Of a stretch of 63,929 bases of DNA, positions 1,915 through 20,808 are shown piece by piece (positions within the stretch are counted from its first letter, which is position 1; each line of letters starts with the position of its first letter). The stretch comes from an uncultured Anaeromyxobacter sp. Its GTDB lineage: Bacteria > Myxococcota > Myxococcia > Myxococcales > Anaeromyxobacteraceae. Location of the stretch: positions 1-63,929 of the forward strand of contig CAIVAR010000070.1 of the NCBI GenBank assembly GCA_903904005.1. Direction: 5' to 3'. The notes under the pieces are model-generated. The model was not told the origin of the DNA. It saw nothing but the letters and a program-made list of their open reading frames with translations, and did no database searches. A program made the position numbers and the translations under genes.

Positions 1915-2148
1915 ATGAAGAGATCGCCGGTCGCGATTGCGCGGCGGTCCGAGGAGCGTCGCGTGAAGAAGACCTGGAGCAAGCCGGAACTGATCGTGCT
2001 GGTGCGGGGCAAGCCGGAGGAGGCGGTGTTGGTTACTTGCAAGCAGAATGATACTCCGCCTGGCGGCGGCCCTTCCGCTCAGGCTTACACGTGCTATGGA
2101 CCTACTGCCGGATGTACTGGCCCTTGTTCTGCGCGCAGGGCTAGTTAG
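1915..2148 (+). CDS. RiPP precursor peptide 1
   Basis: Small peptide with a Lys-rich start, the leader motif WSKPELIVLVRG, a PEEAVL helix and a Cys-Lys pair, then a Gly/Pro/Ser/Thr-rich core with three further Cys (pattern C-x6-C-x3-C) ending in CSARRAS. The ATG at 1915 gives 77 residues but has no ribosome-binding site. The GTG at 1963 is preceded by GAGGAG at 1951-1956 with a good 6-nt gap and gives 61 residues starting VKKTWSK, closer to the length of precursor 3; I favour 1963 as the real start. It lies just upstream of the modification operon. Core and leader boundaries are inferred; cleavage probably falls after the Cys-Lys pair or in the Gly-rich stretch. Confidence 0.8.
   Translation: MKRSPVAIARRSEERRVKKTWSKPELIVLVRGKPEEAVLVTCKQNDTPPGGGPSAQAYTCYGPTAGCTGPCSARRAS
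1951..1956 (+). promoter_or_regulatory. Ribosome-binding site deciding the start of precursor 1
   Basis: GAGGAG six bases before GTG 1963. No comparable site precedes the ATG at 1915, so translation most likely begins at 1963. Confidence 0.55.
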
Positions 2149-2163
2149 CCCCCTCCGCCCCTT

Positions 2164-2179
2164 GATCCCTTGGATCTTT
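2164..2179 (+). terminator. Short hairpin with T run after precursor 1 (weak terminator or attenuator)
   Basis: GATCC-CTT-GGATC followed by TTT, 15 bases after the precursor stop. A leaky terminator here would let the precursor be made in excess of the operon enzymes, a common arrangement in RiPP loci. The stem is only 5 bp, so this is tentative. Confidence 0.35.
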
Positions 2180-2208
2180 GCCCTTGGGAATCCGTGAAGT
2201 AGGGCGTG
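2171..2208 (+). repeat. 3' flank repeat shared by precursors 1 and 3, copy 1
   Basis: The sequence ending GGGAATCCGTGAAGTAGGGCGTG (read 2186-2208) matches 11430-11467 downstream of precursor 3, with GGGAATCC and GAAGTAGGGCGTG identical. The homology shows that the precursor genes were duplicated together with their downstream DNA across the operon. Confidence 0.8.
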
Positions 2209-2231
2209 GTTCAAGGACCGCGCCGCGGAAC

Positions 2232-2267
2232 GCAAGGGGTATGCACTCCTCCGACGCTTCCCCTTGC
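2232..2267 (+). promoter_or_regulatory. Inverted repeat in the leader of the modification operon
   Basis: GCAAGGGG (2232-2239) and CCCCTTGC (2260-2267) are perfect 8-bp complements separated by 20 bases, 24 bp before the operon's first start codon. It could be an RNA hairpin controlling translation of the radical SAM-kinase gene, which otherwise lacks a clear ribosome-binding site, or a protein operator. Confidence 0.4.
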
Positions 2268-2290
2268 CGATCCGGTATCCTGCTGCCTGA

Positions 2291-4243
2291 ATGAGATCAG
2301 TCCTGCAGCAGCTCCCCCGCCTTCCCCTCGAAGGCGCGCTCGACCTCACCTACCGGTGCAACAACACCTGCCGCCACTGCTGGGTGTGGTTGCCTCCGGG
2401 TGCGCCCGACGAGGCCGCCGAGCTCTCCCTCGACGAGATCCGGCGCATCGTGGACGAGGCCCGCGCCCTGGGCTGCCAGAAGTGGAAGCTCTCCGGCGGC
2501 GAGCCCATGCTCCGGGACGACTTCGCCGAGATCTTCGACCACGTCACGCGCAAGGCGGTGAGCTACTCCCTCAACACCAACGGGACGCTCATCACGCCGG
2601 CCATCGCAGAGCTCATGAAGCGCAAGGGCACGAAGATGGTGGCCCTGTACGGCGCGACGGCGGACGTCTACGACGACGTCACCCGCAACCCCGGCGGCTT
2701 CGAGGCCGCCATGCGCGGCTTCGCCTACCTGCGCGAGGCCGGCGCGTCGTTCATCGTCCAGCTCATCCCCATGAAGTCGAACTGGCACCAGTGGCACGCG
2801 ATGCAGGAACTCGCGAAGGAACTCTCGCCCCACCAGCGCACCGGAGCAGCCTGGCTCTACAAGTCGAGCGACGGGTCGCCGGCCCGCAACCGCGAGATCG
2901 ACCGGCAGCGCCTCTCGCCCGAAGAGGTCATCGCGCTCGACAAGCCCGATCCGAGCTACACGGAGCGGACGGCGTCGGGCTGCGGCGTCGTGGATGAAGG
3001 TGACGACCGTCTCTTCGCCCAGTGCATCGCCGGCCGACGCGACTTCCACGTGGACCCTTACGGCCAGATGTCCTGGTGCAGCTTCATCGCAGACCCGGCG
3101 CTTCGCTACGACCTCCGAAAGGGCACCTTCCGCGAGGGCTGGGAGGAGTTCATCCCGTCCTGCGCCGACAAGGTCCGCGGCGGCCAGGAGTGGAAGGACA
3201 ACTGCGGCACCTGCGACTCACGCGGGTCGTGCCGCTGGTGCGCGGTCTACGCCAAGCTCGAGACGGGGAGGTACTCGGCCCCGATTGGCTATCTGTGCGA
3301 GGTGGCCGACGAGGCCGAGAAGTTCAAGGTCGAGTGGCAGGCCAGGCACCGCCGCTACTTCAAGATCGCCGGCATCACCGTCCGCGTCGAGAGCGACATG
3401 GACCTCCAGGAGACCAAGTTCAAGGAGGAGCTGATCCGCTTCGAGGTGAACGGCCCGGGCGACGACAACGTCACGCTCCGCCACCACTTCGAGCTACCGG
3501 ACATGAAGGGCAAGGACACCGGGGAGGAGCTGTACCGGAAGCCGCCCTGGGCCATCTCCCGCAAGAACGGCACCTGGTTCTACAAGGGCATCTCGCCGAC
3601 TGCGGGAGACCCGGAGCTGCACCGCGTCGCCGTCTTCAGCCCGGACCACGCCCACGCCACCATCTACAGCCCGCCCCGGGACGGGGCGCGGATCGGCACC
3701 GACGGCTGGCACTCCCTCTCCCTCTTTCCCACCGACCAGATCTGGCTCGGGCCGCTCCTCGCCGACCGGAGCGCCGTCCTCATGCACTCGGCCGCGGCGG
3801 TGGTGAACGGGAAGGGGCTCCTTTTCATCGGCCACTCCAGCGCCGGCAAGTCCACGACCATGGAGCTGCTCAAGGCGGCCCCGGGGCTCGGCGCCACCAT
3901 CCTCTGCGACGACCGGAACGTGATCCGCAAGTGGTCGGACGGCTGGCGCGTGCACGGCACCTGGAGCCACGGGACCACCGCCGACGTGTCGCCCGACGAG
4001 GCGCCGCTCAAGGCGATCCTGTTCCTCCAGCAGGACACGAAGAACGAGCTCGTGCCGCTCACCGACCGGCGCGAGATCTGGAAGCGGCTCCTCGCCACCC
4101 TCATCAAGCCCATGGTCACGGCCGAGTGGTGGCAGAAGGAGCTCGACGTGCTGGAACGGATCGTCGCCGAGGCCTCCTTCTACACGATGCACTTCGACCG
4201 GACCGGCGCCATCGTGCCCGAGCTCGAGAGGCTCTGCCGGTGA
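2291..4243 (+). CDS. Radical SAM/SPASM peptide maturase fused to an HPr-kinase-like domain
   Basis: A 650-residue two-part protein. Residues 15-230 are a radical SAM barrel with Cys23-x3-Cys27-x2-Cys30 for the catalytic 4Fe-4S cluster and a GGEP motif; residues 245-350 are a Cys-rich SPASM domain (CIAG, WCSF, CGTC, CRWC, YLC) for auxiliary clusters. The last 300 residues resemble the HPr kinase/PEP-carboxykinase-like kinases of RiPP loci, with Walker A GHSSAGKST at residues 514-522 preceded by a hydrophobic strand and LMHSAAAVV. Known: radical SAM/SPASM enzymes install thioether or C-C links in precursor peptides, and HprK-like enzymes such as PadeK phosphorylate the C-terminal Ser of lasso peptides. 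Inferred: this enzyme crosslinks and phosphorylates the three local precursors, all of which end in Ser. First gene of the operon; its stop overlaps the next start (GTGA). Kinase and SAM domains are usually separate proteins. Confidence 0.9.
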   Translation: MRSVLQQLPRLPLEGALDLTYRCNNTCRHCWVWLPPGAPDEAAELSLDEIRRIVDEARALGCQKWKLSGGEPMLRDDFAEIFDHVTRKAVSYSLNTNGTLITPAIAELMKRKGTKMVALYGATADVYDDVTRNPGGFEAAMRGFAYLREAGASFIVQLIPMKSNWHQWHAMQELAKELSPHQRTGAAWLYKSSDGSPARNREIDRQRLSPEEVIALDKPDPSYTERTASGCGVVDEGDDRLFAQCIAGRRDFHVDPYGQMSWCSFIADPALRYDLRKGTFREGWEEFIPSCADKVRGGQEWKDNCGTCDSRGSCRWCAVYAKLETGRYSAPIGYLCEVADEAEKFKVEWQARHRRYFKIAGITVRVESDMDLQETKFKEELIRFEVNGPGDDNVTLRHHFELPDMKGKDTGEELYRKPPWAISRKNGTWFYKGISPTAGDPELHRVAVFSPDHAHATIYSPPRDGARIGTDGWHSLSLFPTDQIWLGPLLADRSAVLMHSAAAVVNGKGLLFIGHSSAGKSTTMELLKAAPGLGATILCDDRNVIRKWSDGWRVHGTWSHGTTADVSPDEAPLKAILFLQQDTKNELVPLTDRREIWKRLLATLIKPMVTAEWWQKELDVLERIVAEASFYTMHFDRTGAIVPELERLCR

Positions 4244-5385
4244 GCGAGTTCGTCCGCCAGGTGAAGCAGCCGGTGAAGCCGCTCGCCTCCCGCCTCGGCC
4301 GGCTCGACATCGAGCTGACCGAGCGTTGCGACAACGACTGCGTCCACTGCTGCATCAACCTGCCCGCGGGGGACGCGGCGGCGCGGGCCCGCGAGATGCC
4401 CACTGCGAAGGTGAAGGAGATCCTGCGCCAGGCGGCCGACCTGGGCTGCATGCAGGTCCGCTTCACGGGGGGTGAACCGCTGCTCCGCCCCGATTTCGAG
4501 GAGCTCTACCTCTTCGCCCGGCGGCTCGGGCTGAAGGTGCTCATCTTCACGAACGCCCGCCACGTCACGCCGGCGCTCGTGGACCTGCTCGCGCGCATCC
4601 CGCCGCTCGTCACCATCGAGGTGACGGTCTACGGAATGCACGCCGAGTCCTACGAGGCGGTCACCCGGGCCCCCGGCTCCTTCGCCCAGTTCCGCCGCGG
4701 CGTGGACCTGCTCCTCGAGCGGCGCATCCCGTTCGTGGTGAAGAGCGCGCTCCTGCCCCAGAACCGGGCCGAGCTGGACGAGTTCGAGACCTGGGCCGCG
4801 ACCATCCCCTGGATGACCAAGGCGCCCGGCCACTCGATGTTCTTCGACCTTCGCAACCGGCGCGACGACCCCGAGAAGAACCGGCTCGTCGAGTCGCTGC
4901 GCCTCACCCCCGAGGAAGGAGTGGCGGTCCTCACGCGCGACGCCGACCGGTACCGCAAGGGGATGAAGGAGTTCGGCAGCAAGTTCATGCGCCCCCCGGG
5001 CGATGTCCTCTTCGGCTGCGGCGCGGGGGCCGGCCTCTCCGTGGACGCCTACGGGCGGGCCCAGCCCTGCATGGGGGTGCGCGCGCCCGGGCTGACCGTG
5101 GACCTGGCCGAGAAGACGCTCTCGGACGCCCTCGACCACTTCTCGACGCTTCGCGAGATGCGGGCCACCAACCCCGAGTACCTGCGCCGCTGCGCCCGGT
5201 GCTTCCTCAAGGGTCTCTGCGAGCAGTGCCCGGCCAAGTCCTGGGCCGAGCACGGGACCTACGACACGCCGGTGGAGTACCTTTGCGACGTGGCCCACGC
5301 CCAGGCCCGCTGGCTCGGCTGGTTGAAGGACGGCGAGAAGGGCTGGGAGGTCGCCGAATGGCGTCAACGAGTGGAGGCAACATGA
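4240..5385 (+). CDS. Radical SAM/SPASM peptide maturase 2
   Basis: 381 residues from the GTG at 4240, chosen because it overlaps the preceding stop (GTGA), as throughout this operon. Cys30-x3-Cys34-x2-Cys37 is the radical SAM cluster motif; TGGEPLLR is the SAM-binding GGE motif; the C-terminal third is a SPASM domain (FGCGAG, CARCFLKGLCEQC, YLC). It is close to the third radical SAM protein of the operon (6697-7839), sharing INLPAGDA, ADLG, TGGEPLLR-DFEE and EVTVYG, so the two arose by duplication. Likely acts on the local precursors with the PqqD-like protein encoded next. The kind of crosslink cannot be read from sequence. Confidence 0.92.
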   Translation: MSEFVRQVKQPVKPLASRLGRLDIELTERCDNDCVHCCINLPAGDAAARAREMPTAKVKEILRQAADLGCMQVRFTGGEPLLRPDFEELYLFARRLGLKVLIFTNARHVTPALVDLLARIPPLVTIEVTVYGMHAESYEAVTRAPGSFAQFRRGVDLLLERRIPFVVKSALLPQNRAELDEFETWAATIPWMTKAPGHSMFFDLRNRRDDPEKNRLVESLRLTPEEGVAVLTRDADRYRKGMKEFGSKFMRPPGDVLFGCGAGAGLSVDAYGRAQPCMGVRAPGLTVDLAEKTLSDALDHFSTLREMRATNPEYLRRCARCFLKGLCEQCPAKSWAEHGTYDTPVEYLCDVAHAQARWLGWLKDGEKGWEVAEWRQRVEAT

Positions 5386-5699
5386 CGGCTGCATCGAAGA
5401 TCGACGTCACCCTGGCGACCATCTGCGCCCCGTCGGAGGACGTGGTGGCTCGCGAGATCGAGGGGGACATCGTCATCGTCCCGCTGGTCGCCGGCATCGG
5501 CGACGCCGACGACGAGCTCTTCACGCTCAACGACACCGGCAAGGCCATCTGGAAGCAGCTCGACGGGGAGCGAACCCTCGGCGACGTGGCGAAGGTCCTC
5601 GCCCAGGAGTTCGAGGCGCCGCTCGCGGAACTCCAGGCCGACGTGCTGGGCTTCGCGGGCGAGATGACGACGCGGAGAATCCTCGCGGCCAGGGGCTGA
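5382..5699 (+). CDS. PqqD-family RiPP recognition element protein
   Basis: 105 residues starting at ATG 5382, overlapping the previous stop by ATGA and preceded by GGAGG. Residues 45-100 carry the PqqD pattern: FTLNDTGKAIWKQLDGERT, then a three-helix section with VAKVLAQEF. PqqD proteins bind leader peptides and hand them to radical SAM enzymes; the lasso B1 protein is of the same fold and reads a Tyr/aromatic-x2-Pro-x-Leu leader motif. The three local precursors have Trp-Ser-Lys-Pro-Glu-Leu, the same spacing, so leader binding is a strong inference. Confidence 0.9.
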   Translation: MTAASKIDVTLATICAPSEDVVAREIEGDIVIVPLVAGIGDADDELFTLNDTGKAIWKQLDGERTLGDVAKVLAQEFEAPLAELQADVLGFAGEMTTRRILAARG

Positions 5700-6700
5700 T
5701 GGCGCCCTTCGTCTCCCACGGTGGGGAGCTCCACCTCTCCAACCTCGGCCAGCTCTCCCTGCTCCAGGGCATGACGGAGAAGGGGGCGTCGCTCCGCACG
5801 ACGGTGCGCGGGTTCAGCATGACCCCCTTCATCCGGGACGAGGACGTGGTCACCATCGCGCCGATGAGCGGCCGGCCGCCGCGCGTGGGCGAGGTGGTCG
5901 CGTTCAGCCACCCGGATTGCGGCCGCCTGGCGATCCACCGGGTCGTGGCCTGCACGGAGCGAGGATGGGTCGTCCGCGGGGACAACTGCCCCGAGGCGGA
6001 TGGCGTGGTCGGAATCGAACACGTCCACGGCCGGGTGGTGGCGGTGGAGCGAGGCGGGAGGACAGTTCGCGTCGGGCTCGGCATGTCCGGCAGGGTCATC
6101 GCCGCGCTGAACCGGGGAACCGTGCTCGGACGGTGGAACATGCTTCGCCTCCTGCCGCGCCGCGCCGCCGGATTTGCCCTCCGTCACGCGCAGGGGCTTG
6201 CCGCCTTCCGGACCGTCGGGAGGCGGGTTGCACCCGGATTCGGGATCGCCGTGGCGAGCGAGGCGGATCGCGAGGTCGTCCACCGGCAGCACAACCCGTT
6301 CATGCCCTACCAGCGAAGCGCTCCCGACCCGCACGTCACCAACTGGGTGGCGAAGGTGGGCCCGCGGATCGTCGGGTTCGTCCAGTTGACGAATCGCCCC
6401 GAGGAGGGCTCGGGCTGGGGCGGCCACTGGCTCTTCTCCCTCTCGGTCCAGCCGCGCTACCGCGGACTCGGGATCGGCGACGCCCTCACCCAGGTGGTCG
6501 TCGACCGGAGCATTGCCGATGGCGCGCCGGACCTCCGGCTCGCGGTCTTCGAGGACAACTTCCGCGCCGTCGGGCTCTACGAGAAGATGGGGTTCGAGAG
6601 GACCACCGTCGCCGCGCTCGAACCCGGATTCCTGGAGGAGAAGGCGGCCAGTGGCCGGCGTCGCATCGTGATGCAGAAGAGGCTCGGAAGGAACGGATGA
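5699..6700 (+). CDS. Signal-peptidase-like (S24/S26) domain fused to a GNAT N-acetyltransferase
   Basis: 333 residues. Residues 25-125 look like an S24/S26 serine peptidase: GFSMTP with nucleophile Ser40, then IHRVV with His80 and WVVRGDNC. The Ser/His pairing is that of the archaeal/ER-type signal peptidases rather than the Ser/Lys pair of bacterial LepB. No N-terminal membrane helix is visible. Residues ~185-330 are a GNAT domain with the acetyl-CoA loop RGLGIG at 255-260 and LYEKMGF near the C-terminus. In a RiPP operon this suggests leader removal followed by acetylation of the new amino terminus in one polypeptide (inference). The start ATG shares one base with the preceding TGA; the stop overlaps the next start. 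The fusion is unusual. Confidence 0.8.
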   Translation: MAPFVSHGGELHLSNLGQLSLLQGMTEKGASLRTTVRGFSMTPFIRDEDVVTIAPMSGRPPRVGEVVAFSHPDCGRLAIHRVVACTERGWVVRGDNCPEADGVVGIEHVHGRVVAVERGGRTVRVGLGMSGRVIAALNRGTVLGRWNMLRLLPRRAAGFALRHAQGLAAFRTVGRRVAPGFGIAVASEADREVVHRQHNPFMPYQRSAPDPHVTNWVAKVGPRIVGFVQLTNRPEEGSGWGGHWLFSLSVQPRYRGLGIGDALTQVVVDRSIADGAPDLRLAVFEDNFRAVGLYEKMGFERTTVAALEPGFLEEKAASGRRRIVMQKRLGRNG

Positions 6701-7839
6701 CCGACACCACGCAGCCCGAGCGCCGGACCATGGAGGTCCAGGCCTTCCCCCTCTGGGACAAGATGAAGGGGAAGCGCGTGCCGCTCTCCTTCGACCTGGA
6801 GGTGACGGCCCGGTGCAGCGCCGACTGCCGCCACTGCTACATCAACCTGCCGGCCGGCGACGCGTCCGCGAAGAGGGAGGAACTGACCGCCAAGGAGATC
6901 CTGGGCATCGCCCGGCAGGCCGCCGACCTGGGTGCCATGTGGTGCCTCGTCACCGGCGGTGAACCGCTTCTCCGCGACGACTTCGAGGAGATCTACCTGG
7001 GGCTGAAGCGGCTCGGGCTGCTCGTCTCGGTCTTCACGAACGCCTGCCTCGTCACCCAGCGTCACGTGGATCTGTGGAAGAAGTACCCGCCCCGCGACAT
7101 CGAGGTGACGGTCTACGGCGTCACCCGCGAGACCTACGAGGCGGTCACGCGACGCCCCGGCTCCTTCGACGCCTTCATGCGGGGGCTCGACCTGCTCCTC
7201 GCGAGCGGCATCCGTGTGCGCCTCAAGGCCATGGCCATCAAGTCGAACCTTCACGAGTACGACGCCATCGCCGAGTTTTGCCAGGCCAGGACCAAGGACT
7301 ACTACCGCTTCGACCCGCAACTCCACATGCGCTTCGACGGCGACGCCGCCCGCAACCTCGAGATCCGCGCGGAACGGCTCAACCCGGAGGAGATCGTCGC
7401 GCTGGAGAAGGCCGACGAGAAGCGGTCGAACGCGATGAAGGAGAACTGCGACAGCCTCATCAACCCGGAGATGGGGCACAAGGGCTGCGACCACCTCTTC
7501 CACTGCGGCGCCGGCAACGGCAGCTTCAACGTGAGCCCCGACGGCCGCTTCCGGCTCTGCTCGTCGCTCTGGGCCGAGGGGACCACCTACGACCTTCGCC
7601 AGGGCACGGTCGCCGACGCCTGGTTCAACTTCGTCCCCAAGGTCCGCGACCTGCGATCGCAGCGGAAGGAGTACCTCGACTCCTGCCGCAGCTGCGAGAT
7701 CGTGAACCTCTGCCTCTGGTGCCCCGCCCACGCCCACCTCGAGACGGGTATGCTCGACGGCACCACGCCCGACTTCTGCGCTGCGGCGCACCGGCGCGCG
7801 GAGGAGCTGAAAGCGTCTTGTACGAGCTCGGACGACTGA
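6697..7839 (+). CDS. Radical SAM/SPASM peptide maturase 3
   Basis: 380 residues beginning at ATG 6697, which overlaps the preceding TGA. Radical SAM motif Cys40-x3-Cys44-x2-Cys47, SAM-binding TGGEPLLR, and a C-terminal SPASM domain (CDHLFHCGAG, RLCSSLW, CRSCEIVNLCLWC, DFC). Paralogue of the 4240-5385 product and less similar to the first radical SAM protein. Three SPASM enzymes in one operon imply more than one type or site of crosslink, or a division of labour between the three precursors. Ends 22 bases inside the ABC transporter gene if that gene starts at TTG 7818. Confidence 0.92.
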   Translation: MTDTTQPERRTMEVQAFPLWDKMKGKRVPLSFDLEVTARCSADCRHCYINLPAGDASAKREELTAKEILGIARQAADLGAMWCLVTGGEPLLRDDFEEIYLGLKRLGLLVSVFTNACLVTQRHVDLWKKYPPRDIEVTVYGVTRETYEAVTRRPGSFDAFMRGLDLLLASGIRVRLKAMAIKSNLHEYDAIAEFCQARTKDYYRFDPQLHMRFDGDAARNLEIRAERLNPEEIVALEKADEKRSNAMKENCDSLINPEMGHKGCDHLFHCGAGNGSFNVSPDGRFRLCSSLWAEGTTYDLRQGTVADAWFNFVPKVRDLRSQRKEYLDSCRSCEIVNLCLWCPAHAHLETGMLDGTTPDFCAAAHRRAEELKASCTSSDD

Positions 7840-9614
7840 AGCCGCTGCGCCGCGCCGTCGGCCTCGTCTGGGAGAGCGCCCGGGGCTGGACGGTCGCCGG
7901 CGCCGTGCTTATGGTCGTCCAGGGGCTCCTGCCGCTCCTGGCGCTCTACCTCACCAAGCTCACGGTGGACGCGGTCACGGCCGGCATCCGCTCACCCGAC
8001 AAGGAGGGGGCGCTCGGCCGGGTGCTCCTCTGGATCGCGCTGACGGGGCTCGTCGCGCTCGCCACCGCCGCGCTCAGGGCCGTGGCCGAGATCGTGCGGG
8101 AGCAGCAGGGGCAGCGGGTCACCGACCATGTGATGGACGTCATCCACCGGCAGTCGGCGGCGGTGGATCTGGCCTACTACGAGGACCCGCGCTACCACGA
8201 CACGCTCTATCGGGCGCAGCAGGAGGCGCCCCACCGCCCCACGCGGATGGTCCAGTCGCTCACGACCATCGTGCAGAACGGGCTGTCGCTCCTGGGGCTC
8301 GCCGGGCTGCTCCTCTTCCTCCACTGGGGTGTGGCGCTCGTCCTCTTCGTGGCGGTGCTCCCGGGCATCGCGGTGAAGCTGCGGAACGCGCGGAAGCTCC
8401 ACGCCTGGCAGGCCAGCCGCACCAAGACCGAACGACGGGCCTGGGACTTCCACCGGATGCTCACGAGCGCCTCGCACGCCAAGGAGCTCCGGATCTTCGG
8501 CCTGGGACAGGTCTTCCGGGAGCGCTACCGGGAGCTGCGGGAGAAGCTCCGCGAGGAGCGGATGCGCCTCACCCTGGGACGGGCCGGCTTCGACCTCGTG
8601 GCCCAGGCTGGCGCCATCCTGTCGCTCTTCGGGATGCTCGCCTTCGTGGCCTGGCGGACGCTGCTCGGCCTTCTCACGCTGGGTGACATGGTCATGTACT
8701 ACCAGGCCTTTCAGCGGGCCCAGGGCTACTTGCAGGAGATCCTGGGCGGCCTGGCGGGCCTCTACGAGGACAGCCTCTTCCTCGGCAACTTCGAGGAGTT
8801 CCTGGCGTTGAAGGCGCAGGTGGCGGTGCCGGCGAGCCCGCCGCCGGTGCCCCGGCCGATGAAGGCCGGCTTCTCGGTGGAGGGGGTGGGCTTCCGGTAC
8901 CCCACGAGCGACAGGCCGGTGCTGGAGGACGTCCGGTTCACCATCGGGCCCGGCGAGGTGGTGGCTCTGGTCGGGGACAACGGGTCGGGAAAGACCACGC
9001 TCGCGAAGTTGCTGTGCCGCCTCTACGACCCCACGGCGGGGCGGATCGCAGTGGACGGGATCGATCTTCGTGAACTCGACCCGGTGGCGCTCCGGCGGGA
9101 GATCTCCGTCATCTTCCAGGACTACGTGCACTACCCGCTCTCCGCCCGGGAGAACATCTGGATCGGGGATGTCGAGGCCGATGCGGATGGCGCCGCCGTC
9201 CGGAGGGCAGCGGGTCAGGCCGGTGCGGACCCGCTCATCGCCCGGCTGCCCCGCGGCTACGACACCGTCCTGGGTGGCCAGTTCGAGGACGGCGTCGAGC
9301 TGTCGGTGGGAGAGTGGCAGAAGGTGGCGCTGGCGCGGGCCTTCCTGCGCGACGCCCAGCTCGTCATCCTCGACGAGCCGACCAGTTCCATGAGCGCCCG
9401 GGCCGAGTCCGAGGTGTTCCAGGCGATCCGGGGGCTGCTCGACGGCAGGTCGGCCTTGCTCGTGAGCCACCGGTTCTCGACGGTCCGGATGGCCGACCGG
9501 ATCTGCGTGCTCGAGCAGGGGCGGATCGTGGAGCAGGGCACGCACGACGAGCTCGTCCGGCTCGGCGGAACGTACGCCGGGATGTACGAGCTCCAGGCGA
9601 GGAGCTACCGGTGA
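7818..9614 (+). CDS. ABC exporter (fused membrane and ATPase domains)
   Basis: 598 residues from a TTG start at 7818, supported by GAGGAG at 7801-7806; no other start lies before the first membrane helix except ATG 7909, inside it. N-terminal half has about six membrane helices; C-terminal half is an ABC ATPase with Walker A GDNGSGKTT, signature LSVGE instead of LSGGQ, Walker B LVILDEP and H-loop SHRFST. There is no N-terminal C39 peptidase, so leader cleavage must come from another protein, perhaps the S24/S26-like domain encoded two genes upstream. Likely exports the mature peptide. Stop overlaps the next start (GTGA). Confidence 0.9.
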   Translation: MYELGRLKPLRRAVGLVWESARGWTVAGAVLMVVQGLLPLLALYLTKLTVDAVTAGIRSPDKEGALGRVLLWIALTGLVALATAALRAVAEIVREQQGQRVTDHVMDVIHRQSAAVDLAYYEDPRYHDTLYRAQQEAPHRPTRMVQSLTTIVQNGLSLLGLAGLLLFLHWGVALVLFVAVLPGIAVKLRNARKLHAWQASRTKTERRAWDFHRMLTSASHAKELRIFGLGQVFRERYRELREKLREERMRLTLGRAGFDLVAQAGAILSLFGMLAFVAWRTLLGLLTLGDMVMYYQAFQRAQGYLQEILGGLAGLYEDSLFLGNFEEFLALKAQVAVPASPPPVPRPMKAGFSVEGVGFRYPTSDRPVLEDVRFTIGPGEVVALVGDNGSGKTTLAKLLCRLYDPTAGRIAVDGIDLRELDPVALRREISVIFQDYVHYPLSARENIWIGDVEADADGAAVRRAAGQAGADPLIARLPRGYDTVLGGQFEDGVELSVGEWQKVALARAFLRDAQLVILDEPTSSMSARAESEVFQAIRGLLDGRSALLVSHRFSTVRMADRICVLEQGRIVEQGTHDELVRLGGTYAGMYELQARSYR

Positions 9615-10843
9615 CGGGGGCGCGCGAGCGGCTCCTCCAGGGGCTCCGGGGGGAGGGAGTGCCGGGGCTCTCCGAGGCCGACTGGGACGAGGTCTTCGAG
9701 TTCGCGCAGACGCACGGCGTGACGCCGCTGCTGCACAGGAACCTCAAGTCGAGGTACGCGGACCTCAGGGTACCGGAAGCGATCCAGACCCGGCTGCGAG
9801 ATACCTACCGGGCCACGGGCATACGGAACACCCGGATCTTCGCCCAGCTGAACGGCATCCTGAAGGGCTTCCGGGCGGCGGGGATCGACGTGGTGGTGCT
9901 GAAGGGAGCGCACCTCGCCGAGCTGGTCTACGAGGAGGTGGCACTGCGGCCGATGGGGGACGTGGACCTGCTGGTGAGGCCGGGCGATCTGCGGGCGGCA
10001 ACCCAACTCTTGCGGTCGATGGGGTACGAGCAACCGGGTCACGAGGGGTCGGCCTCACCCCGGCACCAGGAACCCGTCGTGGAGCAGATGGAGATCGACT
10101 CGTTCCGGAAGCCGGGCGGCCTTCTCCTGGACATCCACTACTTCGCGGTCATCCCCGGGCAGACGGAGAAGGCGAGTATCGAGAGCGTCTGGGACCGGGC
10201 AATGACCGTCCGGCTCGGTGGGGCCGAGGCGCTGGTGCTCTCCCCGGAAGACCTGCTGCTCCACCTGTGCGTGCACGCGGCGCTGAACCACGGCTTTGCC
10301 GTCCGCCTGGTGAACATCTGCGACATCCCCGCGGTCGTGGACCGCTTCGGGGATCGGTTCGACTGGGCTGTGTTCTGGGGGCGGTCGAGGGAATGGGGCG
10401 CGGAGCGCGCGGCCCTCGTCACGTTCGCCCTGGCCGAGCGGTTGCTCGGCTGGCGTCGACCGCCAGCCAGTCAGTCGGGCGAGGATCTTCCGCCCGCCGT
10501 CTTCGACGTCGTGTCGGTGTCCGAACGGCTCCTCTTCTCGCAGAGCCCCACCTTCACGCTGTTCCCCCAGATGGCGAAGCTATGGGGCGATGCGAGCCTG
10601 ATCGAGAAGGCGAGGCTCGTCCTCGACCGGGTATTCGTCTCCCGCAAGGAGCTGGGCTTCACGTACGGTGTGCCCGCCGATTCGCCGAGGATTCTGCTGT
10701 TCTATGTGGTGCGACTCCGGACCCTGGTCGCCAGGGCCATGAGAAAGGCGACGGAGGTGTCGCGGGACGGCGAGGCCGCCGAGGCGTCGCTGGAGAGCGA
10801 GAAGGAGCGGGGCCGCCTGATCGAGTGGATGGGCGAGGAGTGA
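9611..10843 (+). CDS. Nucleotidyltransferase family protein (NTP_transf_5-like)
   Basis: 410 residues from GTG 9611, overlapping the ABC transporter stop. The region LKGAHLAELVY followed by RPMGDVDLLV (residues ~98-120) is the hallmark of the NTP_transf_5 family, with the catalytic acidic pair in GDVD; helices follow, including LLHLCVHAALNHGF. In phosphorylated lasso peptide loci such as that of pseudomycoidin a nucleotidyltransferase of this type accompanies the HprK-like kinase and further modifies the phosphorylated C-terminal Ser. The same pairing here, with precursors ending in Ser, suggests the same role. Last gene of the operon; two more precursor genes follow within 400 bp. Confidence 0.85.
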   Translation: MTGARERLLQGLRGEGVPGLSEADWDEVFEFAQTHGVTPLLHRNLKSRYADLRVPEAIQTRLRDTYRATGIRNTRIFAQLNGILKGFRAAGIDVVVLKGAHLAELVYEEVALRPMGDVDLLVRPGDLRAATQLLRSMGYEQPGHEGSASPRHQEPVVEQMEIDSFRKPGGLLLDIHYFAVIPGQTEKASIESVWDRAMTVRLGGAEALVLSPEDLLLHLCVHAALNHGFAVRLVNICDIPAVVDRFGDRFDWAVFWGRSREWGAERAALVTFALAERLLGWRRPPASQSGEDLPPAVFDVVSVSERLLFSQSPTFTLFPQMAKLWGDASLIEKARLVLDRVFVSRKELGFTYGVPADSPRILLFYVVRLRTLVARAMRKATEVSRDGEAAEASLESEKERGRLIEWMGEE

Positions 10844-10928
10844 ACCGGGCGCACCAAACATAAGTCCCGGAAGGGGGCCGCGCCCGGGTCGGGTATCGCA
10901 GGTAGCGCAGGGGTGGCAAACTCCCCTA

Positions 10929-11147
10929 ATGGTCACCGATAATTCTTTCACAGCGATGTCGGCGATGCTTGCCCCCTCGAAGAAAAAGTTCTGGAGCAAG
11001 CCCGAACTGATCGTGTTGGTGCGGGGCAGGACGGAGGAGTCAGTGTTGGTGACGTGCAAGAACGCCGGAGCCTCTGCGTCCGGCGGGATCGTCGCAGAGA
11101 TGTGCGCGAATGGCGGCATTTTGTGCAGTGAGCGGAATCCTAGCTAG
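10929..11147 (+). CDS. RiPP precursor peptide 2
   Basis: 72 residues from ATG 10929; ATGs at 10956 and 10965 would give 63 or 60 residues and none has a clear ribosome-binding site. Carries SKKKFWSKPELIVLVRG, then TEESVL and a Cys-Lys pair identical in placement to the other two precursors, then a short Ala/Gly/Ser-rich core with Cys-x6-Cys and the ending CSERNPS. AT content here is higher than in the enzymes. Lies 85 bp after the nucleotidyltransferase and 87 bp before precursor 3. Confidence 0.8.
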   Translation: MVTDNSFTAMSAMLAPSKKKFWSKPELIVLVRGRTEESVLVTCKNAGASASGGIVAEMCANGGILCSERNPS

Positions 11148-11234
11148 CGCAACCCTGCCCGCTGGTCATTGGACCTTGACCCCGAGCAGCAGTGAACAAG
11201 TACAAACGTAGCGAAGCCAAAGAGACTGGCACCG

Positions 11235-11402
11235 ATGCCGCGGACGAAGAAGGCCTGGAGCAAGCCGGAATTGATCGTGCTGGTGCGGGGAAGGCGGGAG
11301 GAAGGGGTGCTGGACGCGTGCAAGCACGATCTTGGTACTACTGGCCCTAACACCAAATGTTTCAATATGGGATTTTGGTGCAGTGCGGAGGTGGCAAGCT
11401 AG
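11235..11402 (+). CDS. RiPP precursor peptide 3 (55 aa)
   Basis: Short gene from ATG 11235 to TAG 11400-11402. The peptide begins MPRTKKAWSKPELIVLVRG, continues REEGVLDACK, and has a core with GTTGPNTKC, Cys-x6-Cys (residues 42 and 49, enclosing FNMGFW) and the ending CSAEVAS. Leader residues 8-19 are identical to those in precursors 1 and 2. The core is richer in aromatic residues (Phe, Phe, Trp) than the others, of interest because SPASM enzymes can also crosslink aromatic side chains. Its 3' flank is homologous to that of precursor 1. Confidence 0.8.
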   Translation: MPRTKKAWSKPELIVLVRGRREEGVLDACKHDLGTTGPNTKCFNMGFWCSAEVAS

Positions 11403-17451: not shown

Positions 17452-19191
17452 ATGCGCACCCACCTCGCCATCGTCGCCGCCTGCCTCACCGCCCTCGCCT
17501 GCACGAGGTCGCTCGTCGACGCCGATGGGGCCGCGCTCGTCCCCACCACCTGCTCCTGCACGGCCCCCGCCGGCGGAAGCCCGGTGTGCAACCCCGGCGG
17601 CGGCTGCGACTACGTCTGCCAGGGCGACCTGCTCAAGTGCGGGGGTGGCTGCATGACCTGCACGCCCCCCGCGAACGCGAGCCCGGCCTGCGTCCAGGGC
17701 GGCTGCGGCTTCAGCTGCAACACGCCGGCGCGCCTGTGCGCGGCGACGCCGGGCGGGGGGGCCTCCTGCCAGGTGGAGGGGGACCTCTCCTGCGGTACCG
17801 CCTGCGAGCCCTGCAGCGGGCCGTCCACCGGACCGGGGCGCGGCGTCTGCCAGCCCGGCCCGGCGCTCGGGGCCGGCACCTGCGTCCTCGCCTGCGACGG
17901 CGGGAGCCACGCCTGCGGCGGCTCCTGCTTCGCCGACGTCGACGCGGCCCACTGCGGTCCGTCCTGCCTCGCCTGCACCGCACCGCCCCATGCCTCCCCG
18001 CTCTGCTCCGGCGGCGCCTGCGCCTTCACCTGCGACCCGGGGTGGATGCGCTGCGCCGATGGCTGCTGCCGGGCCTCCGCCGTGGCCGCCGGCGGGGAGT
18101 TCGGCTGCGCGCTCCTCGACGACGGCAGGGTCCGCTGCTGGGGCGCCAACGACCGTGGCCAGCTCGGCGACGGGTCGACCACCTTCCGCTCCGTCCCCGG
18201 CGACGTCGTCGGGCTCCCGCCCTTCCCCGCCCGCGCCGTCGCGCTCGCCACGGGCTGGGCCCACGCCTGCGCCGTCGTCTCCCCGGGCGGGCAGGTCCAC
18301 TGCTGGGGCGACAACTCCACCGGGCAGCTCGGCCCCGCCGCCACCGGTCCGTTCTCCACCACGCCCGTCGCGGTGACCGGTGTCGCCGGGGTGGCGCCGC
18401 CGTTCATCGCGGCCGGGGGCGGCGTCTCGGGCACGCCGCCGGTCCCCTTCGGTCACACCTGCGCGGCCGCCTCGGCCGGTCTCCTCTGCTGGGGCGCGAA
18501 CGGCTCCGGCCAGCTGGGCGACGGCACGACCACCCAGAGCAGCAGCCCGCGCGCCGTGTCGGGGATCGCCTCCGCCTCGGCCCTGGCCGCCGGCGAGCGC
18601 CACGCCTGCGCCGCCTCGGGCGGCACGCTGCGCTGCTGGGGAGCGAACGGCTCCGGGCAGCTCGGCGACGGGTCCACCACCCCGAGCAGCCTGCCCCGGT
18701 CCGTCTCGGGCCTCACGGGGCCGGCCTTCGTCGCCGCCGGTCGCGCCTTCTCCTGCGCCGTCTCCGGCGCGCCGGCGCAGCTGTTCTGCTGGGGCGACAA
18801 CGCCGAGGCCCAGGTCACCGCCTCGACGCCGCCTCCCGCGATCCAGCTCCTCCCGCTCGCCGTCTCGCTCGGGGGCGGGTTCTCCCCCGGGCTCGTCGCC
18901 ACGGGGCGCGCCCACGCCTGCGGTCTCGAGCCGGGGACGGCCACCCTGAAGTGCTTCGGCGCCAACGGGCAGAGCCAGCTCTCCGGCGCCCCCTCGGCGA
19001 CCGGCAAGGTCGACGTGACCCTCACGGGGGTCGTGGGGAGCGCATCGTCGGTGGCGGCGGGGGGGAACCACTCCTGCGCGCTCCTCACCGACGGGTCGGT
19101 CCAGTGCTGGGGGGCGAACGACCGGGGACAGACCGGCACCGGGCAGGCCGGGGGCACGGTGATCGTCCCGACCTTCGTCTCCGGTCGTTAG
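17452..19191 (+). CDS. RCC1-repeat lipoprotein
   Basis: 579 residues with lipobox LTALAC (Cys17). Residues 25-200 are very Cys-rich with repeats of the type C-x3-PP-x-ASP-x-C; residues 205-575 contain seven or so RCC1 repeats of the form CWGANDRGQLGDGST, predicting a seven-bladed propeller. Such proteins are common in Myxococcota and are thought to bind partners at the cell surface. One base after the caspase stop, so probably the same transcript. Confidence 0.88.
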   Translation: MRTHLAIVAACLTALACTRSLVDADGAALVPTTCSCTAPAGGSPVCNPGGGCDYVCQGDLLKCGGGCMTCTPPANASPACVQGGCGFSCNTPARLCAATPGGGASCQVEGDLSCGTACEPCSGPSTGPGRGVCQPGPALGAGTCVLACDGGSHACGGSCFADVDAAHCGPSCLACTAPPHASPLCSGGACAFTCDPGWMRCADGCCRASAVAAGGEFGCALLDDGRVRCWGANDRGQLGDGSTTFRSVPGDVVGLPPFPARAVALATGWAHACAVVSPGGQVHCWGDNSTGQLGPAATGPFSTTPVAVTGVAGVAPPFIAAGGGVSGTPPVPFGHTCAAASAGLLCWGANGSGQLGDGTTTQSSSPRAVSGIASASALAAGERHACAASGGTLRCWGANGSGQLGDGSTTPSSLPRSVSGLTGPAFVAAGRAFSCAVSGAPAQLFCWGDNAEAQVTASTPPPAIQLLPLAVSLGGGFSPGLVATGRAHACGLEPGTATLKCFGANGQSQLSGAPSATGKVDVTLTGVVGSASSVAAGGNHSCALLTDGSVQCWGANDRGQTGTGQAGGTVIVPTFVSGR

Positions 19192-19220: not shown

Positions 19221-19249
19221 TGTCCCGTCGCGGCGGCGGGGGGTGTCAC
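19221..19249 (+). promoter_or_regulatory. Candidate ECF-type promoter of the DUF5666 gene
   Basis: TGTCCCGT (19221-19228), 15 bases, TGTCAC (19244-19249), 44 bp before the start codon; same elements as at 14613-14642. Confidence 0.5.
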
Positions 19250-19293
19250 CACCCCGGAAGCCAGAAGGACAATTCTCCAGGAACGGAGCGGTT

Positions 19294-20808
19294 ATGAACG
19301 GCATGAAGCGGATTCTCTCCATCGGTCTCGCAGCGGTACTCCTCTCGGCGTGCGGAGGGTCGACGTCCTCGACCACCGGCCAGGCCGACCCCACCGGTCC
19401 GACCGGCCCCACGGGGTCCACGGGCCCCACCGGCGCCACCGGGCCCACGGGCGCGCTCGCGACGCCGGCCAGCAAGGGCGTGGTCACCGCAGTCGGTTCG
19501 CTGGTGGTGAACGGCATCCGCTACGACGCGTCGGCCGCCCAGATCAAGATCGACGACAACCCCGGCCGCCCCGAGTCCGAGCTCAAGGTCGGGATGGTGG
19601 TGACCGTGAAGGGCTCGAAGGACGACGTCGCCGGCACCGGCCACGCCTCGGAGGTCGAGGCCCACCACGTGCTGCGGGGCAAGGTCGACGACAAGTCGGG
19701 CAGCTTGCTGCGCGTGGGCGGGCACGAGGTCGAGGTGGAGCACGGCACCGAGTTCGAGGACAGCGTGAACAAGCTCGGCTCCGTGTCGAAGGGCGAGCGC
19801 GTCCGGGTCCACGGCCATGCCACCGCCACCGGCGGGTTCCGGGCCACCCGCGTGGAGAAGGAGGCCGGGTCGTCGGAGGACTTCGAGGTGAAGGGCTTCG
19901 TCTCCGACCTCGACCGCACCACCGGGAAGTTCACGCTCAAGACCTCCCCCGACGCCGCCTCCAGCTACGCGGTGACCGTCGCGGCCGGAACGGTGATCCC
20001 CGCCGGCGTCGTGAACGGCTCCTTCGTCGAGGTCCGGGCCTCCGCGGCCCCGGTCGCCGGCGCCCTGACCGCCGTCGCCGTGCAGCTCGAGGACGCGAAG
20101 CTCGGCGCCGAGGGTTCGGAGGTCGAGGTGGAGGGGCTCGTGACGAGCGGCACCTCCGCGCAGTTCGTCGTCGAGGGGCAGACCGTCGCCACCTCCGTCA
20201 CCACCCGCTGGGAGAACGGCCTCCCTGCCGACCTCGCCGTGGGCGTGAAGGTCGAGGCCGAGGGCAAGCTCGACGCGGCCGGCGTCCTGCAGGCGACCAA
20301 GGTCTCCTTCCGCGCCAACGTCCGGATCCAGGGCGCCGTCTCGGCGGTCACCTCCACGAGCGCTCGCGAGGGCACCTTCCAGCTGCTCGGCCTCACCGTC
20401 CGCACCGACGCCTGGACCGAGTGGAAGTCCTCGGGCAGCGGCGGCAGCGGTGGCGGCACGCTCGACCTGACCACCATCGGCGCGGGTCCGGTCGAGGTGC
20501 GCGGCATCCCCGGGCAGAACGGCGAGATCATCGCCACCCGCGTGGAGGCCACCAAGGACGACCGGCTCTACCTGCAGGGCCCGGTCACCTCGAAGGATGC
20601 GGCGACCAGCCGTCTCGTGGTGCTGGGCCTCACCATCCAGGCCGGAACAGGGACCTCGTACCGCGACGTCGCGGGGACGGCCGTGACCCAGCAGGCCTTC
20701 TTCGACCTCGTGGTCGTCCCGCGCACCGTGGTGAAGGCCCGCAGCCGCGTCCCGATGTCCGGAACCACCTTCAACACCGACGAGATCGAGATCGAGGGGA
20801 GCCGGTAG
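19294..20808 (+). CDS. DUF5666-type repeat lipoprotein with collagen-like linker
   Basis: 504 residues from ATG 19294 with GGAG upstream. Lipobox LLSAC (Cys17), then a Gly-Pro-Thr collagen-like linker (residues ~30-50), then five or more beta-rich repeats of roughly 80 residues each containing phrases such as GMVVTVKGS, GERVRVHG, GSFVEVRAS and GVKVEAEGK: the DUF5666 pattern. Surface-exposed protein of unknown function. Its own ECF-like promoter suggests control by the sigma factor 4.6 kb upstream. Confidence 0.8.
   Translation: MNGMKRILSIGLAAVLLSACGGSTSSTTGQADPTGPTGPTGSTGPTGATGPTGALATPASKGVVTAVGSLVVNGIRYDASAAQIKIDDNPGRPESELKVGMVVTVKGSKDDVAGTGHASEVEAHHVLRGKVDDKSGSLLRVGGHEVEVEHGTEFEDSVNKLGSVSKGERVRVHGHATATGGFRATRVEKEAGSSEDFEVKGFVSDLDRTTGKFTLKTSPDAASSYAVTVAAGTVIPAGVVNGSFVEVRASAAPVAGALTAVAVQLEDAKLGAEGSEVEVEGLVTSGTSAQFVVEGQTVATSVTTRWENGLPADLAVGVKVEAEGKLDAAGVLQATKVSFRANVRIQGAVSAVTSTSAREGTFQLLGLTVRTDAWTEWKSSGSGGSGGGTLDLTTIGAGPVEVRGIPGQNGEIIATRVEATKDDRLYLQGPVTSKDAATSRLVVLGLTIQAGTGTSYRDVAGTAVTQQAFFDLVVVPRTVVKARSRVPMSGTTFNTDEIEIEGSR

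Follow-up and report, generated by a model that had tools for sequence, protein, structure and literature searches.

The window analysed here, 63,929 nucleotides of contig CAIVAR010000070.1 (assembly GCA_903904005.1), belongs to a Myxococcota metagenome-assembled genome (MAG) of 4.56 Mb and 98% completeness, whose nearest named relative is an uncultured Anaeromyxobacter. Close to its beginning lies a locus that is likely to be a biosynthetic operon for ribosomally synthesised and post-translationally modified peptides (RiPPs), working through the steps proposed below, and that is best described as an elaborate form, with three radical SAM (rSAM) enzymes, of an rSAM/HprK peptide cassette, together with the accessory enzymes known from the linear polyphosphorylated peptides (LPP). 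The locus comprises a coupled gene set, three precursor genes, a leader of the type bound by RiPP recognition elements (RREs), intact motifs in the rSAM, kinase and protease proteins, and a precursor core with three Cys that ends in Ser. It represents a real and probably undescribed rSAM branch of the phosphorylated RiPPs; every enzyme type is known already, while their combination and the family of precursors seem to be new.

Organisation of the locus

The features of the locus are the following.

1915..2148, + strand: precursor A1, 77 aa, with WSKPELIVLVRG leader, Cys at W+21 and the last Cys 6 residues before the terminal Ser
2291..3346, + strand: rSAM1, radical SAM/SPASM, N-terminal half of the fusion ORF 2291-4243 (PF04055 7.9e-23, CNNTCRHC, complete SPASM Cys set)
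3347..4243, + strand: HprK-like kinase domain fused to rSAM1 (ScmC TIGR04249 2.2e-8, below cut-off; PF07475 0.011; HKDD alignment)
4240..5385, + strand: rSAM2, radical SAM/SPASM, GTG start, 4-nt overlap with the preceding ORF (PF04055 1.6e-21)
5382..5699, + strand: PqqD-type RiPP recognition element (PF05402 8.9e-15)
5699..6700, + strand: fusion of a signal-peptidase-I-like (S24/S26, Ser-His) protease and GNAT (PF00717 4e-5, PF00583 1.3e-16, TIGR02228 2e-8, below cut-off)
6697..7839, + strand: rSAM3, radical SAM/SPASM (PF04055 1.4e-20, SPASM 0.0016; best NCBIfam model ScmE)
7818..9614, + strand: MsbA-like ABC exporter (permease-ATPase), TTG start (TIGR02204 283.6 bits, TIGR02203 283.2 bits, PF00005, PF00664; ABC 8e-32)
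9611..10843, + strand: nucleotidyltransferase NTP_transf_5 (PF14907 5.9e-64)
10929..11147, + strand: precursor A2, 72 aa, ends NPS
11235..11402, + strand: precursor A3, 55 aa, ends VAS

The operon (2291-10843) consists of seven overlapping open reading frames (ORFs), the overlaps being 4, 4, 1, 4, 22 and 4 nt in order, which encode the rSAM1-kinase fusion (650 aa), rSAM2 (381), PqqD (105), the protease-GNAT fusion (333), rSAM3 (380), the ABC exporter (598) and the nucleotidyltransferase (410). The original prediction, made from the same DNA, had described a seven-gene set with three precursors, and all of these elements were recovered in their places; its reading as a RiPP locus with rSAM enzymes, RRE, kinase, nucleotidyltransferase and peptidase-GNAT protein is borne out by the sequence and by the relatives described below. 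The enzyme types that it listed are present, but the kinase has no gene of its own and forms the C-terminal half of the ORF for rSAM1, and the title of the prediction had left out the MsbA-like ABC exporter; it had also overlooked the rSAM-kinase fusion, the identity of the leader as an RRE motif and the broad family of cassettes with one rSAM. No Rfam matches were found in the window, and scans of the window for promoters and terminators returned nothing beyond chance.

Precursors and leader

The three precursors share 12 identical residues, WSKPELIVLVRG, followed by xxEExVLxxCK, after which they diverge, and all of them terminate in Ser (AS, PS and AS). The RRE-binding motif [Y/W]xxPx[LVIFA] is contained in WSKPELIVLVRG. 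On the DNA level the leader pattern occurs exactly 3 times in the window, against 0 expected from 100 shuffles, and nowhere else in the genome, and chance repetition of the leader was rejected on this expectation. The count and the alignment together confirm the earlier claim of an identical leader core joined to variable Cys-containing cores in three precursor genes. For precursor A1, GTG 1963, with GAGGAG six bases upstream, is a possible alternative to ATG 1915 as the start codon.

Enzyme motifs

CxxxCxxC and the complete SPASM cysteine sets are intact in all three rSAM enzymes of the operon. The protease half carries GFSMTP...IHRVV...RGDN, corresponding to a Ser-His dyad, its closest model being the archaeal-type signal peptidase I (below cut-off); the dyad is largely retained in relatives, and L084 lacks the usual GxSMxP. 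The kinase domain covers approximately residues 355-650 of the fusion, with H499, K520 and D540-D541 (the HKDD motif) and the P-loop GHSSAGKST, and its closest models are ScmC and HprK-related kinase B. The columns invariant in an alignment of 17 relatives include H147, the P-loop K168 and D189 (domain numbering), which together with D188 match the His-Lys-Asp-Asp set that is catalytic in the lasso peptide kinases phosphorylating C-terminal Ser (PMC9266682). A sequence search of the PDB with the kinase domain gave nothing significant, the matches being mostly ABC P-loops.

A wider family of cassettes with one rSAM

Matches to the kinase-domain profile were found in 19 of 400 Chloroflexota genomes and 22 of 189 Myxococcota genomes. 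In both phyla a cassette of PqqD, rSAM/SPASM, precursor, HprK and signal-peptidase-I-like (SpI) genes recurs, in which the kinase is single and unfused and the precursor sits in the gap between rSAM and kinase. Among 33 precursors (some near-identical) the first Cys stands 20 residues after the Tyr (19 in one) or 21 after the Trp of [Y/W]xxP, a spacing that has to be read with the fact that the search pattern for the second of the two precursor sets introduced below itself required a Cys at roughly this distance past the aromatic residue, whereas the first was found without it. At least three Cys are present from the first core Cys onward in 31 of the 33, and a small residue (A, G, S or T) occupies the position five before the first Cys in 28; in Tyr-type leaders this residue falls 15 after the Tyr, equal to the cleavage spacing of LPP (Tyr at -16), and in Trp-type leaders one further. 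The window shares all features that define the cassette, namely PqqD, rSAM, HprK, SpI, [Y/W]xxP, Cys at Y+20/W+21, three Cys and a terminal Ser/Thr. Homologous operons lacking such peptides would have spoken against the original prediction; those found elsewhere do carry them. No NCBIfam family scored above its cut-off for any precursor tested.

Searches of plasmids returned only mycofactocin-type and other rSAM enzymes, and those of viral contigs had no matches. Two Myxococcota loci (L126 and L128) contain HprK-like genes without rSAM, each adjoining a small peptide with YxxPAILWEQPFVALAQ that ends in ECIP or ECVP, which looks like another RiPP type.

Relatives with three rSAM enzymes

A scan of genome contigs yielded two further loci of the three-rSAM form. 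The first (L004) comes from a second uncultured Anaeromyxobacter MAG (G045), in which the operon contig is 96% identical to the window over 2150-5687. The AraC-type gene followed by the A1 leader also occurs in this MAG, on another contig, and an origin of the locus as a MAG artefact was rejected on these two grounds. Peptides with the leader number three in this genome, each on a contig of its own; two are complete and end TS and SS. The second locus (L005), from a Chloroflexi MAG (G195), encodes an rSAM1-kinase fusion, rSAM2, a precursor, PqqD, SpI without GNAT, and rSAM3; protein identities to the window are 55% for rSAM1-kinase, 68% for rSAM2, 88% for the leader, 54% for PqqD, 43% for SpI and 63% for rSAM3. 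Its precursor terminates in Ser. Since this contig starts just before rSAM1, a lack of the exporter and nucleotidyltransferase genes in that genome is not proven. When the precursor profile was run against 195 Myxococcota genomes, convincing matches were obtained only in the window genome (G000) and G045; the class-level search around the Chloroflexota MAG covered that one genome only. The three-rSAM form is thus rare, and its occurrence in two phyla suggests that it spread by horizontal transfer.

Orphan leader-bearing precursors, with no cassette rSAM or kinase detected on the contig, are also found in the two relatives (L024, L025, L091 and L092, on contigs G045:C37, G045:C17, G195:C449 and G195:C552). 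The core of the dispersed G195 peptides is nearly the same as that of the precursor in a one-rSAM cassette of this genome.

On an rSAM tree with three outgroups, which did not include ScmE or ScmF sequences, 20 cassette rSAM enzymes formed one clade with support of 100/100. Within the tree the six sequences of rSAM1-3 from the window and L005 formed one clade (97/95) consisting of three one-to-one pairs. This single clade points to duplication within the lineage, followed by fusion of one copy with the kinase; most likely, the three rSAM enzymes are duplicates descended from the one rSAM that the simpler cassettes have.

The terminal residue and the kinase type

The hypothesis of a conserved terminal hydroxyl was formed on a first set of precursors, of which, after removal of near-identical ones, 19 of 20 end in Ser or Thr, whereas Ser+Thr account for 13% of the remaining core positions (binomial p 3e-16). 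A second set was selected by leader pattern regardless of the last residue, and 8 of its 11 precursors end in this way (p 9e-6). The terminal Ser/Thr is found with HKDD (Asp-Asp) kinases in 24 of 25 precursors, and in the HKED (Glu-Asp) subclade of Chloroflexota in only 2 of 5 (Fisher p 0.009); these p-values are optimistic, as sequences that share ancestry do not count as fully independent. The loci L104-L106 and L107-L109, from six genomes of Chloroflexota, have near-identical precursors that end CFS and CFT, three genomes with each. A conserved terminal Ser/Thr that tracks the HKDD kinase points to action of the kinase on the terminal hydroxyl, as in paeninodin, and the earlier proposal of C-terminal phosphorylation is strongly favoured by this conservation.

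In the HKED subclade (L081, L082, L083, L110 and L112), where the terminal Ser/Thr is often missing, the first Cys belongs to a conserved C[HF]SS stretch. Speculatively, this motif could provide an alternative phosphate acceptor near the core N-terminus, as in LPP.

Comparison with known systems

The closest characterised system is LPP (lpp cluster, Paenibacillus alginolyticus; PMC13381572, 2026), a Bacillota RiPP family defined by SpI, a discrete RRE, an HprK-like kinase, an NTP transferase and an MsbA-like exporter. In this functional single cluster LppS removes the leader, LppK adds one to four phosphates on core Ser3, and the RREs read a [Y/W]xxP motif (PMC13381572). The window likewise has all five core enzymes and the [Y/W]xxP leader motif, and its three precursors fall within the one to three of LPP. 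It differs in the leader, which is WSKPELIVLVRGxxEExVLxxCK instead of YxxPxVLxHQxIxFETxxS, and in three rSAM/SPASM enzymes with intact cluster motifs, LPP being linear with phosphorylation as the primary modification and no rSAM described; further differences are the fusion of the kinase to rSAM and of GNAT to the protease, the three-Cys core and the terminal Ser. The terms radical SAM, SPASM, Myxococc- and Chloroflex- are absent from the text of PMC13381572. No characterised family with the same leader and gene set was found, in line with the original prediction, LPP sharing five enzymes but having another leader and no rSAM.

Lasso peptides of the paeninodin and pseudomycoidin type (PadeK, ThcoK, PsmK, PsmN; PMC9266682) resemble the window in their HKDD kinase, C-terminal Ser, nucleotidyltransferase homologue, WxxP leader and RRE. 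The kinases PadeK, ThcoK and SyanK act on lasso precursors by phosphorylating their C-terminal Ser, and the nucleotidyltransferase homologue PsmN is linked to hexose addition on the phosphate (PMC9266682). The window carries rSAM enzymes instead of the macrolactam synthetase and B2 protease of these clusters, and a lasso peptide identity was rejected, since the ten cluster proteins had no Pfam match to macrolactam synthetase (Asn synthetase-like C) or B2 cysteine protease. With sactipeptides and ranthipeptides the window has in common SPASM rSAM maturases and Cys-bearing cores, but no maturase model scored above cut-off, and the window adds a kinase and phosphate-directed enzymes.

SynChlorMet is the TIGRFAMs name of a cassette (TIGR04248-TIGR04251) that, like the window, has a PqqD-like protein, an HprK-like protein and two rSAM/SPASM proteins. 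The resemblance noted in the original prediction holds in that rSAM3 finds its best NCBIfam model in ScmE and the kinase domain in ScmC. It does not extend to membership, which is not shown because all scores are far below the curated cut-offs (33.8 bits against 125 for ScmC, 25 against 100 for ScmD, 86.8 against 400 for ScmE and 82.8 against 400 for ScmF), that is, 3-5 times lower. ScmC is also a separate protein model, the comparison being by models only, and the SpI, GNAT, exporter and nucleotidyltransferase of the window are not part of the SynChlorMet models seen. A search with ScmC of the window genome and 14 control genomes gave only sub-threshold matches, in the window genome itself. 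In the open-access literature no paper on SynChlorMet or the leader words was found, nor any on a combination of HprK/HPr kinase and radical SAM, a description elsewhere being possible.

Proposed pathway and alternative explanations

The chemistry of the pathway can be proposed from the enzyme families. The PqqD domain would bind WxxPxL of the leader and present the precursor to the rSAM/SPASM enzymes, which would act on the core, its conserved cysteines being the most likely targets (for thioether or C-C links); each of the three may serve a site of its own. The fused HprK-like kinase would then phosphorylate, perhaps polyphosphorylate, the C-terminal Ser, and the PF14907 enzyme could cap the phosphate with a hexose or nucleotidyl group. 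The leader would be cut off by the SpI-like protease, a plausible site being just behind the small residue that lies five positions ahead of the first Cys (EEA|VLVTC), near the LPP spacing from the aromatic residue; the fused GNAT would acetylate the new N-terminus, and the MsbA-like ABC protein would export the product.

Several observations weigh against this scheme. Homology of the kinase domain consists of weak profile scores and a motif; AlphaFold gave pLDDT of 36 for the fusion protein (no alignment) and 44 for the kinase domain (two-row alignment), and a fold search with the latter model returned no matches and was disregarded at this pLDDT. One precursor (L123) ends in Ala despite an HKDD kinase, and the pattern found no precursor in cassettes L085, L089, L111, L116, L117, L119 and L121. 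Nucleotidyltransferase, exporter and GNAT fusion occur as a set only in the window genome, among the cassettes read, so that their role in a shared pathway is without support from conservation. The phospho-Ser of LPP lies near the core N-terminus and not at the C-terminus, and deletion of lppN had no effect in a heterologous host (PMC13381572).

The five shared enzymes could mean that the locus is a plain LPP cluster in which the rSAM enzymes are recent passengers of minor role. This appears improbable: where relatives have this type of kinase and precursor, an rSAM nearly always belongs to the cassette and nucleotidyltransferase and exporter do not, the kinase and rSAM1 are a single protein, and the precursors have conserved Cys and a terminal Ser in place of the LPP leader motif, rSAM being unmentioned in the LPP report. 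That the locus is instead a SynChlorMet cassette with one extra rSAM is unlikely. The best models for rSAM3 and the kinase, together with ScmF and ScmD among the matches, agree with it, but it is opposed by the scores given above and by the kinases of the one-rSAM cassettes, which fit HprK_rel_A/B better than ScmC.

The remote homology of the kinase leaves some room for an HprK-like domain that, instead of phosphorylating Ser, serves to activate the C-terminal carboxylate or a different group, with the terminal Ser/Thr needed otherwise, for example by the nucleotidyltransferase or protease. Little probability is attached to this, as HKDD is intact, characterised relatives phosphorylate the C-terminal Ser hydroxyl, and the terminal residue is kept in cassettes without nucleotidyltransferase and relaxed in the HKED subclade. 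Conversion of the peptides into a small redox cofactor, in the manner of PQQ or mycofactocin, would agree with the PqqD and rSAM/SPASM plan of those pathways and with a mycofactocin rSAM model among the matches; it is nevertheless very unlikely, since each genome has several precursors with divergent cores, where a cofactor would have one conserved precursor, since the operon includes an exporter, and since no cofactor-dependent dehydrogenase was seen beside it in the ORFs examined.

For the preferred reading, a RiPP operon joining rSAM modification and phosphorylation, an extension to a whole family is evenly balanced: a cross-phylum RiPP family of Chloroflexota and Myxococcota whose peptides would bear rSAM links at conserved Cys and, at the C-terminus, a Ser/Thr with one or more phosphates and possibly a sugar or nucleotide cap, the window being its most elaborate form, with one protein performing radical modification and phosphorylation of the same peptide. 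Such a family would unite two RiPP worlds that were separate, maturation by radical SAM/SPASM enzymes and phosphorylation of peptides by kinases of the HprK type. Precursors and a substrate rule (terminal Ser/Thr) would become available for cassettes in which the rSAM and the kinase fall into no curated NCBIfam family, so that their chemistry could be tested directly, and the natural rSAM-kinase fusion would offer a system for studying the ordering of two modifications on one peptide. It would also suggest that the LPP enzyme set is a module combinable with other core-modifying enzymes.

Other features of the window and its genome

Positions 270-588 and 1641-1932 of the window are direct repeats of each other that have diverged (92% over 124 nt, then 78% and 71%); they cover the end of the AraC-type gene and the stretch that leads up to precursor A1. 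A single copy is present on the G045 contig, indicating that approximately 1.37 kb was gained in the window genome or lost in G045. Elsewhere in the window genome two loci, L097 (7982-11275; contig G000:C68) and L098 (contig G000:C27), contain PqqD, HprK-like and PF14907-like genes with no rSAM detected, and are probably other phosphorylated RiPP or lasso-type systems. Further along the window, positions 17452-19191 encode a 579-aa protein consisting mostly of RCC1 repeats, which adjoins a DUF5666 protein at 19243-20808.

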